The position numbers were made by a program, and so were the translations under genes. A model generated the notes under the pieces. That model was not told where the DNA came from. It did no database searches and saw only the letters and a list, made by a program, of their open reading frames with translations. Below, piece after piece: positions 2,900-27,900 of a stretch of DNA of 61,586 bases; position 1 is the first letter of the stretch, and each line of letters starts with the position of its first letter. This stretch comes from Paracoccaceae bacterium (GTDB lineage Bacteria > Pseudomonadota > Alphaproteobacteria > Rhodobacterales > Rhodobacteraceae), in the NCBI GenBank assembly GCA_029242355.1, contig JAQWUC010000004.1, forward strand, positions 1 to 61,586, given 5' to 3'.

Positions 2900-3736
2900 A
2901 TGGAATTAAAATTAATTTCAGAAAATAAAACGTTTAACGGCAGCCAAAAGGTGTATAGTCATTATTCAGAAGTTTGTAAATGTGACATGACTTTTGGACT
3001 TTTTCTTCCAGAAGCCAGTGAGAACTATAAGGTTCCAATATTATGGTTTTTATCCGGACTTACTTGTACGCATGAGAACGCGATGACAAAATCTGGAGCA
3101 CAACAATGGGCGTCTGAAATGAATATTGCGTTAGTGTTTCCAGACACGTCCCCTCGAGGTAAATCTGTTCCAAACCATGTGGATTTTGATTTGGGCCAGG
3201 GAGCCGGTTTTTATCTGGACGCCACTGAAGATCCATGGAACAAAAATTTCAACATGGAAACTTATATCATAGGTGAGTTAAATGATTTGTTATTTAAAAA
3301 ATTTAATCTGAATAAGTTAAAACAGGGTATTACGGGTCATTCAATGGGTGGGTTAGGAGCCTTGAATTTGGCATTAAAAAACCCACAAATATTTAAATCA
3401 GCCTCAGCTTTTTCACCAATTACAAACCCAACTCAAAGTGAGTGGGGTCAAAAGCAATTTTCATCCTATTTAGGAACGAATCAAAAGATTTGGACTGACT
3501 ATGATCCGTCATTATTATTGAAAAAACTTGGATTTAATACACAGATATTGGTTGACCAAGGTAAGGCTGATAACTTTATTGAATTACTAATGCCAAAAAG
3601 TTTATCAGATCAAATGGAAGGAAATATCAATTTGGGTAAATTTAGATATCACGATGGGTACGATCACAGTTATTTTTTTGTATCAACTTTTATTAAGGAA
3701 CATATAATTCACCATACTAATATTTTGTCTGCTTAG
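2900..3736 (+). CDS. fghA: S-formylglutathione hydrolase
   Basis: ITGHSMGGLGALNLALKNP nucleophile elbow; LSGLTCTHENAMTKSGAQ; tight operon with frmA homolog. Confidence 0.95.
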   Translation: MELKLISENKTFNGSQKVYSHYSEVCKCDMTFGLFLPEASENYKVPILWFLSGLTCTHENAMTKSGAQQWASEMNIALVFPDTSPRGKSVPNHVDFDLGQGAGFYLDATEDPWNKNFNMETYIIGELNDLLFKKFNLNKLKQGITGHSMGGLGALNLALKNPQIFKSASAFSPITNPTQSEWGQKQFSSYLGTNQKIWTDYDPSLLLKKLGFNTQILVDQGKADNFIELLMPKSLSDQMEGNINLGKFRYHDGYDHSYFFVSTFIKEHIIHHTNILSA

Positions 3737-3743
3737 TAAGTTA

Positions 3744-4157
3744 TTAGTCGGATAGCTTTTCTATTTTGCCGCCTGATTTTTCCCAGTTAGTGAATCCACC
3801 CTCAATGTGGCTAACGTTTGAAAGTCCCATGTCTTTTGCGGTTTTTGTTGCAAGCGCTGATCGCCATGCGCTTGCGCAGTAAAAGACAAAATACTTATTT
3901 TGCGCGAATATTTCTTTATGGTATGGACTTTCAGGGTCGATCCAAAACTCTAACATTCCTCTTGGGCATGAAAACGAACCTGGGATTTTTCCACTTCGTT
4001 GAATTTCACGAAAATCTCTAAGGTCAATAAATTCGTAATGGTTATTATTATGGAGTTTTATGGCCTCATCAATTGAAATTGTTGTGATTTCGCTGTTGGC
4101 TTCTTTTAATAACTTTTTGTATCCTTTAGTAATAACTGATCCCATGCTTCCTTCCAC
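3744..4157 (-). CDS. Rhodanese-like domain protein (single domain)
   Basis: YEFIDLRDFREIQRSGKIPGS and FYCASAWRSALATKTAKDMGLSNVSHIEGGFTNW with active-site Cys. Confidence 0.9.
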   Translation of the reverse strand: MEGSMGSVITKGYKKLLKEANSEITTISIDEAIKLHNNNHYEFIDLRDFREIQRSGKIPGSFSCPRGMLEFWIDPESPYHKEIFAQNKYFVFYCASAWRSALATKTAKDMGLSNVSHIEGGFTNWEKSGGKIEKLSD

Positions 4158-4165
4158 TTAAAGTT

Positions 4166-4618
4166 TTATATGCTTTGTCGTCTAACGTTTCCTGTCACTG
4201 ATCCCTTGAGTGCGTCATTCTCATATTCTACCTCATTAAGGTGCGCTAAAACTAAGTCACTAATTGAAATAAATTCAACAATAATGTCATTTTCTGTAAC
4301 AGGCATATGCCTAAAACGACCTTCATTCATTCGCTCAATAACACTTTTTAAAGTATCAAAGCGACCACAACAGCTTACAGCCGTTGTCATTACGTCTTCT
4401 ACTAATGAGTTTAATCCAGAACTGCCTTTTGCCGAAATCTCTTTAATAATGTCTCTTTCAGATAGAATACCGAGTATTGTTCCGTTTTCATTCGTTACCG
4501 GCAAAGCACCAATTTTGTTCTTAGCCAAAAGTTTTGAAGACTCAGAGAGCGACGCACTTGGCAATACTCTTACTATCTGTCTTTTTTTCATTTTTGAAAT
4601 TATGTGATCAATTACCAT
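4166..4618 (-). CDS. Tandem CBS-domain protein
   Basis: Two CBS repeats: IGALPVTNENGTILGILSERDIIKE and FRHMPVTENDIIVEFISISDLV. Confidence 0.9.
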   Translation of the reverse strand: MVIDHIISKMKKRQIVRVLPSASLSESSKLLAKNKIGALPVTNENGTILGILSERDIIKEISAKGSSGLNSLVEDVMTTAVSCCGRFDTLKSVIERMNEGRFRHMPVTENDIIVEFISISDLVLAHLNEVEYENDALKGSVTGNVRRQSI

Positions 4619-4705
4619 TAAAGGTCCCCATGGTTAATCATTAATTACATGTCTTTTATTCTATTTTTGTAGATATGCAACCCGACTAACTGTTAAATAT
4701 TTTAA

Positions 4706-9375: not shown

Positions 9376-10407
9376 ATGCTAAAAATATCTATTATTGGTC
9401 TCGGATTGATGGGGAAGCAGCATTTAAAAGCTATTAATGAGCATCCAAATTGTAAAATGGCTTCTATTATTGATCATAGTGATGAAGCTAAAGAGGTAGC
9501 AACTAGTGAAGGTTGTCCGTTTTATCAAAATTTAACTGAGGCAATTGTAAAAAGTAAACCTGATGGTTTAATCATAGCGACTCCTAATGCGCGTCACTTT
9601 GAAGATAGCGTTTTGGGATTGAAGGCTGGTATTCCTATTTTGATTGAGAAACCAATCTCAGATTCTTTAATGGATGCTGAGAAGTTAATTGAATTAGGAA
9701 AGAAAATGAACGTACCAATTCTAACAGGTTACCATAGGCGGCATAATCCAATTAATTTTGATATAAAAAAGAAATTACTGGATGGTTTTATAGGTGACAT
9801 AGTTGCAATGCACGGAATGTTTTGGCTTTACAAGCCTGATGATTATTTTGATCAAGCCTGGCGAAAGATTGAGGGTGCTGGACCGATTTACATAAATTTA
9901 AGTCATGACATTGACTTAATGCGTCATTTTTTGGGTGAGATAGAAAGTGTTCAGGCAGTTGCTAGTAATAAAACAAGAGGTTTTGATGTAGAAGACACTT
10001 CCGTGGCAATATTAAACTTCCAGTCGGGCGTAATTGGTTCAATTTCAATATCTGATACAATAGTAAGCCCATGGAGCTATGAGCTTACTTCAAATGAAAA
10101 CCCAGCTTATCATCATACTACCGCTAACTGCTATTGGATAGGTGGAACGGATGGATCTATTGAATTGCCAAATGGGACTATTTGGTCTCATGAGGGACAT
10201 AAAAGTTGGTGGGAACCCATTTCAAGCACAACAACTTTACATAAAAAAGCTAATCCCATTTTTAATCAAATTGATAATTTTATAAACGTAATTAGAGGAG
10301 AAGATAAACCTTTGGTTTCAGGATTAGAAGGTTTGAAAACAAGTGCTGTAATAGATGCCATTAAATTAGCAACTCAGACACGAATGGTAGAAAAACCAAA
10401 ATTTTAA
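9376..10407 (+). CDS. Gfo/Idh/MocA-family oxidoreductase
   Basis: IIGLGLMGKQHLKAI Rossmann motif; EKPISDSLMDAEKLI; GYHRRHNP. Confidence 0.92.
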   Translation: MLKISIIGLGLMGKQHLKAINEHPNCKMASIIDHSDEAKEVATSEGCPFYQNLTEAIVKSKPDGLIIATPNARHFEDSVLGLKAGIPILIEKPISDSLMDAEKLIELGKKMNVPILTGYHRRHNPINFDIKKKLLDGFIGDIVAMHGMFWLYKPDDYFDQAWRKIEGAGPIYINLSHDIDLMRHFLGEIESVQAVASNKTRGFDVEDTSVAILNFQSGVIGSISISDTIVSPWSYELTSNENPAYHHTTANCYWIGGTDGSIELPNGTIWSHEGHKSWWEPISSTTTLHKKANPIFNQIDNFINVIRGEDKPLVSGLEGLKTSAVIDAIKLATQTRMVEKPKF

Positions 10408-13828: not shown

Positions 13829-14080
13829 AAAGATCTACTATTATGTTAAGTTAGAACTTGAAATCTGGTATTCATGATGGCCACGACGCCGTTACCGATT
13901 GTATGAATGATTAGTTTTTAGTTATGGTATACCAATCTTTTTTATTGTTGGGTTTATTTTTTTCGTGAAACGAAATTAGTTCAAAAAGAGTACGGTTTGG
14001 GGATTGTAAATTTTTAGCAAAGCTTTATATATCAGGCGTATAATTCCAATTTTAATTAGTAGAAGAAGGATAAGTTTGCC

Positions 14081-21099: not shown

Positions 21100-22404
21100 A
21101 TGGCGCTAACATATTTAAAGCGAGCACTAAAGACTGGAGAACAATCCTTGTCTGATGTTCGTGAATTGGTACAAGAAATCTTGACTGATATTGAAAATGG
21201 TGGTGATCAGAAAGCGCTGGATTATGCAAGAAAGTTTGATAACTATGACGGAAAAATAATCCTTACAGCAGAAGATATTGATAGGGCATCAGAAAAGATT
21301 CCTAAAAGGATTAAAGATGACATTCAGTTTGCATATGAAAATGTTAAAAGGTTCGCCGAAGCACAAAAAAAGACACTTCATGATTTTGATATAGAAGTTG
21401 TTCCAGAATTTAAGACAGGTCAGAAGTATATACCATGTAATTCTGTTGGCTGTTATATTCCTGGTGGAAGGTATAGCCACGTTGCATCAGCTATTATGAC
21501 CGTTACTACTGCGAAAGTTGCTGGTTGCAATCATATTTCTGCCTGTTCTCCGCCACGACCAGGCATAGGTATTAACCCAGCTATAATTTATACAGCCAAT
21601 TTGTGTGGGGCTAGTACCATTTTATCAATGGGTGGAGTTCAAGCTATTTCTGCAATGACTTACGGTTTGTTTGGTCTACCAAAAGCAGATATTCTTGTAG
21701 GCCCTGGTAATCAATATGTAGCTGAGGCAAAAAGATTATTATTTGGTCGAGTCGGTTTAGATATGGTCGCAGGACCAACAGATAGTTTAATTTTAGCTGA
21801 TCAAACGGCTGATCCAGAAGTTGTTGCGGTTGATCTAGTTGGGCAGGCTGAGCATGGATACAATTCTCCAGTTTGGTTGGTTACTGATAATGCAGTTCTT
21901 GCAGACAAAGTTTTAACCTTGATTCCAAAGCTAATTGCAGATTTACCTCAAGTTAATAGAGAGAATGCTGAAGCAGCTTGGCGAGATTTCGGTGAGATAA
22001 TAATTTGCTCTAATCGCGAAGAGATGGCTGAAATATCTGATGAGTATGCCCCCGAGCATTTAAGCGTTCAGGCAAATGATTTGGATTGGTGGTTAAAGCG
22101 ACTTAAATGTTATGGGTCACTTTTTCTTGGTGAAGAGACTACTGTTGCATATGGTGATAAAGCATCTGGAACAAACCATGTTCTTCCTACTGCTCGATCA
22201 GCTCGTTATACGGGAGGGCTATCAGTTCACAAATATATGAAGGTTGTAACCTGGCAACAAGCAACTCGAAAAGGATCTAAGGAAATAGCGCAGGCTACGG
22301 CGCGTATTAGTCGAACAGAGGGGATGGAGGGCCATGCTCGTACAGCAGACATTAGGTTAAAAAAATACTTTACAGATGAAGACTTTGATTTATCAGGAGA
22401 ATAG
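21100..22404 (+). CDS. hpsN: Histidinol-dehydrogenase family, likely sulfopropanediol 3-dehydrogenase (HpsN-like)
   Basis: HisD fold (SVGCYIPGGRYSHVASAIMT, GQAEHGYNSPVWLVTD, GTNHVLPTARSARYTGGLSVHKYMKVVTWQQ); no his genes nearby; followed by SDR and Zn-ADH in the hpsN-O-P order. Confidence 0.72.
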   Translation: MALTYLKRALKTGEQSLSDVRELVQEILTDIENGGDQKALDYARKFDNYDGKIILTAEDIDRASEKIPKRIKDDIQFAYENVKRFAEAQKKTLHDFDIEVVPEFKTGQKYIPCNSVGCYIPGGRYSHVASAIMTVTTAKVAGCNHISACSPPRPGIGINPAIIYTANLCGASTILSMGGVQAISAMTYGLFGLPKADILVGPGNQYVAEAKRLLFGRVGLDMVAGPTDSLILADQTADPEVVAVDLVGQAEHGYNSPVWLVTDNAVLADKVLTLIPKLIADLPQVNRENAEAAWRDFGEIIICSNREEMAEISDEYAPEHLSVQANDLDWWLKRLKCYGSLFLGEETTVAYGDKASGTNHVLPTARSARYTGGLSVHKYMKVVTWQQATRKGSKEIAQATARISRTEGMEGHARTADIRLKKYFTDEDFDLSGE

Positions 22405-22405
22405 T

Positions 22406-23170
22406 ATGAAAATGAACACTTCAAAACTTTTCTCTTTGGAAGGAAAAGTGGCTTGTGTCACGGGAGCGAGTAACGGGTTAGGTCAACAGACAGCTTCTGC
22501 ACTACTAGAAAATGGTGCAAAAGTGGTTGGGGTGGCTCGCAATGATGGTTTATTAAGATCGTGGTCAGAGGAGGCTGGTGCAAATGCTTCTTTTGTAACT
22601 TTTGATTTGACCTACAGAGAAAAAATAAAAGAGATTGTTGAAGAAATAAGTGAGCTTTTTGGACCGCCTGATATTTTAATAAATGCTGCTGGTGTAAACA
22701 CGCGTGAGCATGCAAATGATATTACTCATGATAATTGGGATAAAACAATAGAGTTAAATCTTGCGGCACCATTTTTTATGGCTCAAGCGCTTGTTCCTAA
22801 TATGATAAAAAATGGTTGGGGAAGAATTGTCAATATTGCTTCATTGCAGTCAAGACGAGCTTTCCCTTCAGGCTTGTCTTATGGAGCTTCAAAAGGTGGA
22901 GTAGAACAGATGACAAGAGCAATGGCCGAAGCATGGTCTTGTGATGGAATTACAGTTAATGCTTTGGCTCCTGGTTTTTTCCCGACTGAGCTAACTAAGG
23001 CAGTTTTCAACGATCCAACACTATCAAAGAAGAATGCTGATCAAACATGTATTGGTAGAAATGGGAAATTGGATGATTTAAATGGTCCCATTGTATTTTT
23101 GTGCTCTGATGCATCAGCTTACGTTACTGGGCAAATGTTGTTTGTAGACGGAGGTTTTACTGTAAAATGA
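22406..23170 (+). CDS. hpsO: SDR-family dehydrogenase, HpsO-like candidate
   Basis: VTGASNGLGQQTASALLENG, NAAGVNTREHAND, LSYGASKGGVEQMTRAMAEAW; position directly after hpsN homolog; ATG 22406 preferred. Confidence 0.62.
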   Translation: MKMNTSKLFSLEGKVACVTGASNGLGQQTASALLENGAKVVGVARNDGLLRSWSEEAGANASFVTFDLTYREKIKEIVEEISELFGPPDILINAAGVNTREHANDITHDNWDKTIELNLAAPFFMAQALVPNMIKNGWGRIVNIASLQSRRAFPSGLSYGASKGGVEQMTRAMAEAWSCDGITVNALAPGFFPTELTKAVFNDPTLSKKNADQTCIGRNGKLDDLNGPIVFLCSDASAYVTGQMLFVDGGFTVK

Positions 23171-24156
23171 AAGCATTAGTTTATGTAAAAGAAAAAACAT
23201 TGTCGTATCAGATAGTTAAAGATCCCGTAGTAAAAGAGGGTGAATTATTAATAAAAGTTAAGTCAGTTGGCATTTGTGGATCGGATATGCACGCATTTCT
23301 TGGACATGATGATAGAAGACCTGCACCGTTAATACTAGGTCATGAAGCTGCAGGTGTGATCTTAGAAGGTAAAAATTCAGGAAAGAAAGTAACAGTTAAC
23401 CCGCTTGTGTCTTGTGGTACGTGTCCAGCTTGTAGGAAGAATCGTAATAATATTTGTCCAAACCGTCAGCTTATTTCTATTCCTCCAAGGGAAGGAGCAT
23501 TCGCAGAACTTTTAGTAATTCCAGAGAAGAATACGGTAATCGTTCCAGAGACTGTTAATATTAATCATGCGGCACTAACGGAACCATTGGCGTGTGGTTG
23601 GCATGCTGTAAAATTAGGTATTCAAAGTTTAGATATCCCTCTTTCAGACGCTAAATGTCTCGTAATAGGAGGTGGGGCGATTGGAGTTGGAGTAAATCTT
23701 GCTTTGAAAGCAAAGGGTGCGATAAATGTCGCCATGATTGAGAGGAATCCTTTAAGACTTAAGATGCTTGCTAATAACTTCGCTTCCGATACGATTGTTA
23801 CTGATAACATTGATTTTAAAACGGAATTTGATTTTGTAATTGATGCAGTTGGATTTTCAAAAACACGCCAAGACGCTTCTGCACTATGTAGACCTGGAGG
23901 TATAATCGCTCATATTGGCTTGGGGGATGGAAGCGGAGGCCTCGACATAAGGCGAATGACATTACAGGAAATTACATTCATAGGTACATATACCTATACA
24001 CCAGAGGATTTTAAAGAAACGGCACAGGCAATTTTTATGTCTCAAATGGGAGATTTTGGTTGGGTGGATGAAAGGTCGTTAGATCAAGGCCAGAATGCGT
24101 TTATCGATATTTTGGAAGGAAAAGTTTCAGCTTCAAAAATTGTTTTGCGACCTTAA
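23167..24156 (+). CDS. hpsP: Zinc-dependent alcohol dehydrogenase (MDR), HpsP-like candidate
   Basis: VGICGSDMHAFLGHD, LILGHEAAGVI, NPLVSCGTCPACRKNRNNIC; overlaps preceding stop (ATGA). Confidence 0.62.
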   Translation: MKALVYVKEKTLSYQIVKDPVVKEGELLIKVKSVGICGSDMHAFLGHDDRRPAPLILGHEAAGVILEGKNSGKKVTVNPLVSCGTCPACRKNRNNICPNRQLISIPPREGAFAELLVIPEKNTVIVPETVNINHAALTEPLACGWHAVKLGIQSLDIPLSDAKCLVIGGGAIGVGVNLALKAKGAINVAMIERNPLRLKMLANNFASDTIVTDNIDFKTEFDFVIDAVGFSKTRQDASALCRPGGIIAHIGLGDGSGGLDIRRMTLQEITFIGTYTYTPEDFKETAQAIFMSQMGDFGWVDERSLDQGQNAFIDILEGKVSASKIVLRP

Positions 24157-24186
24157 CGGTTTATTTATTCTAAGAGATTTATATCA

Positions 24187-24200
24187 CATTATATATAATG
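24187..24200. repeat. 14-bp perfect palindrome CATTATATATAATG
   Basis: Read directly; lies between hpsP-like stop and TRAP SBP coding region. Confidence 0.9.
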
Positions 24201-24242
24201 AAAATTTGACGGTAGAATTAATAGTAGAAAAGGATTAGACTA

Positions 24243-25316
24243 ATAAAAATTGTCATTAAAATTCTTTATTTTATTTTATCCTCTGGTTTTTTTGTTAACG
24301 TAGCTAGGGGGGAAATAGTATTAGAAATTCATCCATTAGTTCCGATTAGTTCAGTTGAGCTTAAAAGTTTAAATTCTTTTGCAAATGACGTTTCTATTCT
24401 AACTGATGGAGAAGTTAAATTTTTAATTGCTAAGATTAATCCATTGGGAAAGCTCTCTGATAAGCTTGAAAAAGTGAGTAGAGGTACTTATAACGCAGCT
24501 TTTGGGCATACACACCTCTTATCAGAAAAAGAACCGGCTGCTATTTTATTTGGAGCGCCTCCAGTCACAAACGTAATAGGTTTTGATAATACAACATTTT
24601 TTAGTTGGTTTTATAGTGCTGGAGGATCTGACCTATATGATGAAATGTGGGCTGAATCAAATCTTAATATACAAGGTTTCATCTTGCAAACATCTGGACC
24701 ACGTGCCTTTGGTTGGTTTAGAAAGCCATTCTCTTCGCTTGATGAACTTAAAGGAAAGCGAATAAGGGATTCATTCGATTTTACTAACGAAATTCATAAA
24801 GAAATAGGGTTGTCTGTAGTTCCAATGAAAGCGGCTGATGTTCTTCCCGAGTTGGAAAAGAAGAAATTAGATGGTGCTTCATGGTGTTGCCCTGCTTCTG
24901 ACTTAATGCTTGGTTTACATGGCTCAGTTAATAATTATTATCTCCAAGGAATTAGTAAAAACATCTTGAACGCTGACTTATATCTCAATAAAGATGTGTA
25001 TGAAAAATTAAACTTACAACAGCGAAAAGCTATTGAGTTAGCAGCGGCCGCTTCGATAATAAGACATAGCTCAGCCTTAATATATGAAAATGGTAAAGCA
25101 TTGAAAGAGCTCTTAGAAGATCACAATGTTATATTAAATAACACTCCAAGAGAATATTTTGAAGAATACAAAAAAGAAGCAACAGAGTTTCTATCAGAAA
25201 AAGCAAGGGTAAACGATTTTTTTGCAAAAGTTTGGCAAAGTCAGAAAGACTTCGCTATTGTAGGGCATCCATATTGGTCTGAACTTCAAGCTCCGAGCAA
25301 AGGGTTGTATGATTGA
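24243..25316 (+). CDS. TRAP transporter substrate-binding protein with non-standard start (ATA) or start-codon lesion
   Basis: ORF-track start (TTG 24444) truncates the protein; the same frame is open back to TAG at 24225-24227 and encodes (I)KIVIKILYFILSSGFFVNVARGEIVLEIHPL, a signal peptide; RBS-like AAAAGG at 24228-24233; no ATG/GTG/TTG in this extension. Confidence 0.75.
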   Translation: MKIVIKILYFILSSGFFVNVARGEIVLEIHPLVPISSVELKSLNSFANDVSILTDGEVKFLIAKINPLGKLSDKLEKVSRGTYNAAFGHTHLLSEKEPAAILFGAPPVTNVIGFDNTTFFSWFYSAGGSDLYDEMWAESNLNIQGFILQTSGPRAFGWFRKPFSSLDELKGKRIRDSFDFTNEIHKEIGLSVVPMKAADVLPELEKKKLDGASWCCPASDLMLGLHGSVNNYYLQGISKNILNADLYLNKDVYEKLNLQQRKAIELAAAASIIRHSSALIYENGKALKELLEDHNVILNNTPREYFEEYKKEATEFLSEKARVNDFFAKVWQSQKDFAIVGHPYWSELQAPSKGLYD

Positions 25317-25412
25317 GTTAATTACAACATCAAATAAACGTAATTTAGAATAGAGAAATAAGAAAACACATTTGGTTAATATTAAAAATTAAAATTTAGA
25401 AAAGGAATTATT

Positions 25413-26411
25413 ATGCATCTTGCTCGTTTCCCACGTGTACGCCTTGGTCATATGAATACACCGCTGGAACTTTTGCCACGTTTAACTGAAGCTTTGGATG
25501 GTCCGGAAATTTGGATTAAAAGAGATGATTGCACAGGCTTGTCAACTGGAGGAAATAAAACAAGAAAATTAGAATTTTTAATGGCGGATGCTTTGGCAAA
25601 GAATGCGGATATTGTTCTAACGCAAGGTGCAACCCAGTCAAATCATGCTAGGCAAACTGCTGCAGCTGCGGCTAAACTGGGCTTAAAGTGCCATATCCTT
25701 CTTGAGGATCGAACAGGAATGACTGATATTAGCTATAAAGAAAATGGAAATGTCTTGCTTAATAACTTACATGGGGCATCTATGGAACATCGGGGACCAG
25801 GCCTTGATATGAATGCTGAAATGGAAGATGCAGCTGAAAATTTTAGAAAAGAAGGTTTAAATGCATATACTATTCCTGGAGGGGGTTCTAATTCTATCGG
25901 TGCGCTTGGTTATGCTAATTGTGCTCAGGAATTAATTGTTCAAAGTACTGAGATGGGTCATGCAATAGACCATATTGTGCATGCAACTGGGTCAGCAGGA
26001 ACACAGGCTGGTCTTATTGTTGGTCTTAAGGCTTTAAATGCCCAAATTCCACTTCTTGGAATTGGTGTAAGAGCGCAAAAAGAGAAACAGGAAGAGAACG
26101 TATATAATGTAGCTGTTGAAACCGCAAAAAAGTTGGGTTGTGATGGTATTGTAAATCGCCAGGATGTTGTAGCAAATTGCGATTATGTGGGTCCCGGTTA
26201 CGGCTTTCCTGCTCAAAGTACGTTAGAGGCCATTGATATTTTTGCTCGGTTAGAGGGTATTTTATTAGATCCAGTATATTCTGGTAAAGGTGGTGCTGGA
26301 CTTATTGATCTTATAAGAAAAAAGCATTTTAAAAGAGGTCAGAGGATTGTTTTTGTACATACTGGAGGCGCTATTGCTCTCGCGGGATACTTAAATAGTT
26401 TTCGGAGCTAG
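25413..26411 (+). CDS. cuyA: PLP-dependent D-cysteine desulfhydrase family; likely L-cysteate sulfo-lyase (CuyA-like)
   Basis: [61 protein letters not shown] with PLP lysine; context of HpsN-type sulfonate genes. Confidence 0.7.
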
Positions 26412-26415
26412 GTCG

Positions 26416-27900
26416 ATGAAGTATGTTCTTGCTATAGATCAAGGTACTACATCATCTAGAGCCGTACTTTTTGATAAGAACCTCGAAGTGGCTTTTATAT
26501 CCCAAGAAGAGTTCCCACAACATTTTCCAAAACCTGGTTGGGTTGAGCACAACCCTGACGATATTTGGAATTCTGTTATTTCAGTCTGTAAAAATGTAAT
26601 AGAACAAGCAGGTATTACTGGAAAAGATATTTTATCTATTGGAATTTCTAATCAACGTGAGACAACACTTATTTGGAATAAGAGAACAAGTAAACCAATC
26701 CATAATGCTATAGTATGGCAAGACCGGCGAACATCAGATATCTGTAATGAATTTAAAGCTGATTACCGCGAAGAAACGATTACTAAAAAGACTGGTTTGT
26801 TGTTGGACCCATATTTTTCTGGGACCAAAGTGAAGTGGTTATTGGATCAAAATGATACAATTCATACTGCTTGTGAAAATGGAGATTACTTATTTGGAAC
26901 TGTCGACAGCTTCTTAATATGGAAGTTAACTGGCGGGCGAGTGCATGTGACAGATGCAACGAATGCTTCAAGAACTATGCTCTTTGATATAGATGAAAAT
27001 TGCTGGTCAAAAGAAATTTGTGACTTATTGGGCGTCCCTATGAAGATGTTACCAACTGTTTTAAATTGCGCTGATGATTTTGGGAAAACAAATCCAGAAA
27101 TATTTGGCAATTCAATCCCTATAACAGGGGTCGCAGGAGATCAGCATGCAGCAACAATTGGCCAAGCGTGTTTTGAACCAGGAATGGTCAAGTCTACTTA
27201 TGGTACTGGTTGTTTTGTCATGCTCAATACTGGGAAAAAACGAATTCATTCAAAAAATAGGCTTTTAAGTACAATTGCGTATCGATTAGATGGAGAAATA
27301 ACCTATGCCTTGGAAGGATCAATTTTTATTGCTGGTGCTGCAGTCCAATGGCTTAGGGATGGTTTAAAAATAATTTCTAATGCGTCTGAAGCTGAAGCAT
27401 TTGCGAGAACATCAGATGCTGAACAAAGTGTTTACTTTGTTCCTGCATTTACCGGTCTTGGTGCCCCACATTGGGATGCGGATGCGCGTGGAGCTATTTA
27501 TGGTCTGACACGTAATTCAGGGCCATCAGAAATATGCCGGGCAACTTTGGAGAGCGTAGGTTTTCAAAGTAAAGATTTATTAGATGCGATGATTTCTGAT
27601 GCGCCCGATGCAAAAACATCGATCCTTAGGGTGGATGGCGGTATGAGTAGTTCGGATTGGACGATGCAGTTCCTGGCTGACATTCTTCAGGCTCCAGTTG
27701 ATCGACCAAAGATGTTAGAGACTACTGCGCTTGGTGTAGCTTGGCTGGCAGGTATGTATATTGGATTTTACCCAAGTAAACTTGAATTTGGTAGGAATTG
27801 GTTAAAAGATAAAAGGTTTGAGTCACAAATGGAAAGCGATCTAAGAGCGAAGTTAGTTGCTGGGTGGAAGCTGGTAATTAGTCGTACTTTAGCTAGATAG
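26416..27900 (+). CDS. glpK: Glycerol kinase
   Basis: [113 protein letters not shown]. Confidence 0.93.

Follow-up and report, generated by a model that had tools for sequence, protein, structure and literature searches.

Start region of the TRAP gene

This locus raises the question of where translation begins in a gene for a TRAP solute-binding protein that lacks a standard start codon over the first part of its reading frame. In the window (the whole 61,586-nucleotide stretch of DNA analysed), the frame runs open from a TAG at 24225-24227 to the gene's stop codon at 25314-25316, and no in-frame ATG, GTG or TTG occurs from that TAG until the TTG at 24444, as a sequence-only reading of this DNA had claimed. 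Translated from the TAG onwards, the frame reads KRIRL-I-KIVIKILYFILSSGFFVNVARGEIVLEIHPL... The Shine-Dalgarno sequence that the same reading had placed before ATA 24243 is also present (Table 1); it is of ordinary length, and its spacing is conserved in a relative of the same genus. RNA structure near the start showed nothing out of the ordinary (z 0.61). Spacing from GGA to the start codon peaks at 6-9 nt in both the source genome and the relative, and spacings of 14-17 nt are rare. In the window, ATA 24243 lies 8 nt from the Shine-Dalgarno sequence, and ATT 24249, GTC 24252 and ATT 24255 lie 14, 17 and 20 nt from it, respectively.

The product matches the DctP family (PF03480) over residues 41-319 of the stop-to-stop frame (69.5 bits, cut-off 23.4) and a solved TRAP binding protein, 5cm6, with an E value of 8e-21. 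TTG 24444 is residue 73 of that frame. The leader that would result from a start at ATA 24243 is predicted to be a Sec signal peptide some 23 residues long, with cleavage placed by eye where the residues are A-R-G in the window and A-S-G in the relative. The signal peptide noted in the earlier reading is thus visible by eye in the translation from about ATA 24243, and it presupposes a start at or near that codon. The view that the gene is otherwise intact is upheld, as its frame is undamaged to its stop, with no other damage among its 362 codons and with signs of purifying selection.

Table 1 Coordinates of the TRAP gene, its start region and the loci compared with it
Feature	Position	Strand	Basis or remark
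Cluster: HisD-family dehydrogenase (HpsN-like), SDR, zinc alcohol dehydrogenase, TRAP binding protein, CuyA, glycerol kinase	21100..27900	+	
Shine-Dalgarno sequence AAAAGGA	24228..24234	+	8-nt gap to ATA; GGAAGGA at equal distance in the relative
ATA, proposed start codon	24243..24245	+	Shared with the relative; 8-nt spacing; precedent of infC in this genome; initiation proposed from these
Gene for DctP-family TRAP solute-binding protein	24243..25316	+	PF03480, E 4e-19; PDB 5cm6, 2hzk; dN/dS well below 1
Predicted Sec signal peptide MKIVIKILYFILSSGFFVNVARG	24243..24311	+	Translation and alignment with the relative; cleavage before E judged by eye
Internal TTG, first standard start of the frame	24444..24446	+	Unlikely start: drops signal peptide and part of DctP domain
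infC ATA start	L041:3603-3605 (G000:C5)		Aligned codon compared in L164-L193
OppD-like ABC ATPase, candidate ATA start	L106 reverse strand, position 9408 (G000:C70, gene 3629-4627)	-	TAAGGAGGTCATT ATA ACA AAT

Selection on the codons upstream of TTG 24444

We scored coding potential with codon statistics trained on 626 long genes of the source genome. The survey covered 1.46 Mb (about 84%) of the source genome, with 1076 scored coding frames, and roughly 30% of the relative. The 67 codons that begin with ATA 24243 and end at 24443 scored 18.4 bits; among all upstream scores of the survey this ranks third, and no frame with a strongly supported gene downstream scored higher. Compared with the relative, dN over this stretch is 0.233 and dS is 1.51, and third codon positions are the most divergent; for the leader alone (24 codons), dN is 0.214 and dS is 0.763. 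These values indicate that purifying selection acts on the 67 codons upstream of TTG 24444. The low dN relative to dS further implies that, for the greater part of the period since the two species diverged, selection has maintained a protein that starts well upstream of this TTG. The missing standard start is not a matter of chance.

Start region in a same-genus relative

The comparison with close strains that the sequence-only reading had proposed could be made with a single genome of the same genus (G001), whose TRAP protein is 68% identical. Screens of 397 genomes of the family and 390 'relatives' genomes (overlapping sets) yielded no further close relative, and a search of genome contigs returned only this relative again, with no hits among viral contigs. 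The start region of the relative reads AGA TTA ATA AAA GTG ATG AAA AAG ATT and the aligned region of the window AGA CTA ATA AAA ATT GTC ATT AAA ATT. Both genomes thus have ATA, not ATG, at the aligned codon, with the Shine-Dalgarno sequence ending 8 nt ahead of it. From AAGGA through ATA AAA, 17 of the 19 bases are identical; upstream of AAGGA there is no significant similarity. A single G-to-A change or error at 24245, as the earlier reading had suggested, is therefore disfavoured, since the relative shares the ATA at the same distance from its Shine-Dalgarno sequence.

The relative also carries a GTG and an ATG two and three codons past its ATA, where the window has ATT 24249 and GTC 24252, and it may itself start at one of them, in which case the two codons after ATA AAA would be unconstrained as a start in the window. 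Nevertheless, the conserved ATA with its 8-nt spacing, set against the rare 14-17 nt at which the GTG and ATG of the relative lie, favours ATA as the start common to both species.

The main alternative is a recent loss or shift of the start in this lineage: if an ATG or GTG that the ancestor had a few codons past ATA has mutated, the gene would now be either expressed at a low level from whatever codon happens to serve or in early decay. The GTG and ATG of the relative opposite ATT and GTC in the window are what such a loss might look like; distant family orthologs with a readable start begin at ATG, and, apart from this, the leader varies most around its start. However, the ATT/GTG and GTC/ATG pairs each differ by two bases, the GTG and ATG of the relative are themselves poorly spaced (14 and 17 nt), and 362 codons under purifying selection have remained free of other damage. 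We therefore regard a lost or moved start as possible but unlikely.

Other genes without a standard start

The infC gene of the source genome, which encodes IF3, likewise has no standard start and reads AAAGGAATAGACCCC ATA GCT CGA AGA, that is, (M)ARRPHNAP. We compared its aligned start codon in the source genome and 29 other genomes of Rhodobacteraceae and other Alphaproteobacteria. The codon is ATA at 28 of the 30 loci, the source genome included, and ATG at none; the two exceptions are L177, with ATC, and L190, with AGA followed by ATA as the next codon. The infC gene of Rhodobacter has been described as starting at ATA; our literature search turned up no study of this infC start in Alphaproteobacteria. 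ATA starts thus appear to be at home in the source genome, and infC, which serves as a positive control, argues for translation of the TRAP gene from ATA. The infC result also suggests that near-cognate starts in Alphaproteobacteria deserve a systematic look.

Another candidate ATA start belongs to a gene for an OppD-like ABC ATPase, in which ATA comes directly after TAAGGAGGT and 24 codons pass without a standard start. The OppD profile match begins 4 residues after this ATA, and a start at the first GTG would remove the first strand of the protein. As a control, we counted in the 1076 genes the codons that stand behind a Shine-Dalgarno sequence and lie 15 or more codons ahead of the first standard start. 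ATA was the commonest with three cases (the TRAP gene, infC and the OppD-like ATPase), followed by CTA and TTA with two each and six other codons with one each, although these numbers are small and some entries are a single site counted at two adjacent codons.

Two further genes were noted in passing. A gene for an NmrA-like NAD(P)-binding protein (L058:13165-14139, G000:C22), with a same-genus homolog at 59%, has 37 codons without a standard start. Another gene (L069 reverse strand, 13942-13945, G000:C33), whose product resembles a binding protein and carries a signal peptide, has AAGGAAGAAG followed by ATC ATA; TTG ATG lies just 7-8 codons further on, which makes its start ambiguous.

The survey found few other genes that lack a standard start, which bears on whether a sequence or assembly error in the first codons masks a standard start of the TRAP gene. 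The source assembly is a fragmented draft of the metagenome type (75 contigs, 61% complete), and several early codons of the gene are one base away from a standard start. Against this, an independent genome, that of the relative, confirms the ATA, the frame contains no indel, and the scarcity of such genes in the survey indicates that errors of this kind are not common. An error is thus improbable.

Probable initiation at ATA 24243

Weak initiation at ATA 24243, yielding a protein with the predicted Sec signal peptide (about 23 residues), is the best explanation and probably the correct one. In this model, AAAAGGA would pair with the 3' end of the 16S rRNA and place ATA 24243 in the P site, where the initiator tRNA would pair with AUA as a near-cognate codon. 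Because such a codon is disfavoured by IF3, initiation would be sensitive to this factor, and the yield would be expected to be a fraction of that from ATG. The product would then carry the predicted signal peptide, with cleavage probably before E.

The earlier reading had proposed translation from ATA or ATT, and the evidence favours ATA, with infC as its positive control. Initiation might instead occur at ATT 24249 or ATT 24255. ATT is a known rare start codon, with which infC of E. coli begins, and ATT 24255 would give a plausible leader, MKILYFILSSGFFVNVARG. Still, the two codons lie outside the usual range of distances from the Shine-Dalgarno sequence, and neither is kept in the relative, which makes an ATT start quite improbable. 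Translation from TTG 24444, the first standard start of the frame, is extremely improbable, because the 67 preceding codons look like coding sequence and evolve under purifying selection, and a protein without its signal peptide would also lose about 32 DctP residues from a start that has no Shine-Dalgarno match in the preceding 20 bases. We also rejected two upstream starts combined with a frameshift: ATG 24198 meets a TGA at once, and a short TTG frame at 24206-24238 stops short of ATA and lacks a same-frame counterpart in the relative.

If initiation is at ATA 24243, gene finders limited to ATG, GTG and TTG would clip the signal peptide of the TRAP protein and part of its domain. It is conceivable, if rather doubtful, that ATA in this marine Rhodobacteraceae genus functions as an IF3-sensitive start not only for infC but also for a few other genes, the TRAP gene and the OppD-like ATPase, and that organic nutrient uptake is thereby linked to IF3 abundance.

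Gene neighbourhood

The TRAP gene appears to be an intact member of a cluster resembling those for sulfonate degradation (Table 1). Its CuyA cysteate sulfo-lyase matches NF052482 with 534.6 bits (cut-off 450), and the gene of the histidinol-dehydrogenase family is called HpsN-like from its family and neighbours. Together, the six genes of the cluster point to the use of a C3-sulfonate, the substrate being suggested by the neighbours. No DctQ or DctM partner genes were found within the window; DctM genes are present on other contigs of the source genome. In the relative, the counterpart cluster (L035:3347-11901) has an extra gene before the TRAP gene, GMC-oxidoreductase-like by its sequence, that the window does not have, and no DctQ or DctM was noticed beside the TRAP gene.

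Comparison with known systems

The TRAP gene resembles those of other DctP proteins in its PF03480 match along the mature protein. The closest described set to its cluster is hpsKLM and hpsNOP of Ruegeria pomeroyi, in which HpsKLM is responsible for dihydroxypropanesulfonate uptake (PMC4334477). The likeness lies in the HpsN- and CuyA-like neighbours, as in sulfonate use; unlike HpsKLM, the TRAP gene has no adjoining DctQ or DctM in either the source genome or the relative.

With respect to its start, the gene is similar to infC of the source genome and its relatives, where AAAGGA precedes ATA at about the same distance. The two differ in that infC encodes a translation factor with self-regulation, as in E. 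coli, whereas the TRAP gene serves transport and has no known reason for such control.

AUA starts can function at reduced strength in other bacteria. Mutation of the rpoS start from ATG to ATA in E. coli reduces RpoS up to 5-fold (PMC12864459), and the efficiency of ATA in this species is given as up to about 1% of that of ATG in a citation of Hecht et al. 2017 (in PMC12864459). In S. aureus, AUA starts have been found for infC, ccpN and citZ; in poor medium, reporters for ccpN and citZ (AUA) and cvfC1 (AUU) reached about 10% of AUG, and in rich medium the ccpN AUA reporter gave up to 30% (PMC13009471). The S. aureus starts, which lie behind extended Shine-Dalgarno sequences, were demonstrated with reporters and ribosome profiling, whereas the start of the TRAP gene is proposed from sequence and has a Shine-Dalgarno sequence of ordinary length. 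The systems are alike in that AUA stands behind a Shine-Dalgarno sequence, and the AUA of ccpN is conserved between species (PMC13009471). The TRAP gene appears to be a further instance of this known phenomenon, a near-cognate AUA start; if its ATA is used, a transport gene joins the few natural genes initiated at AUA.
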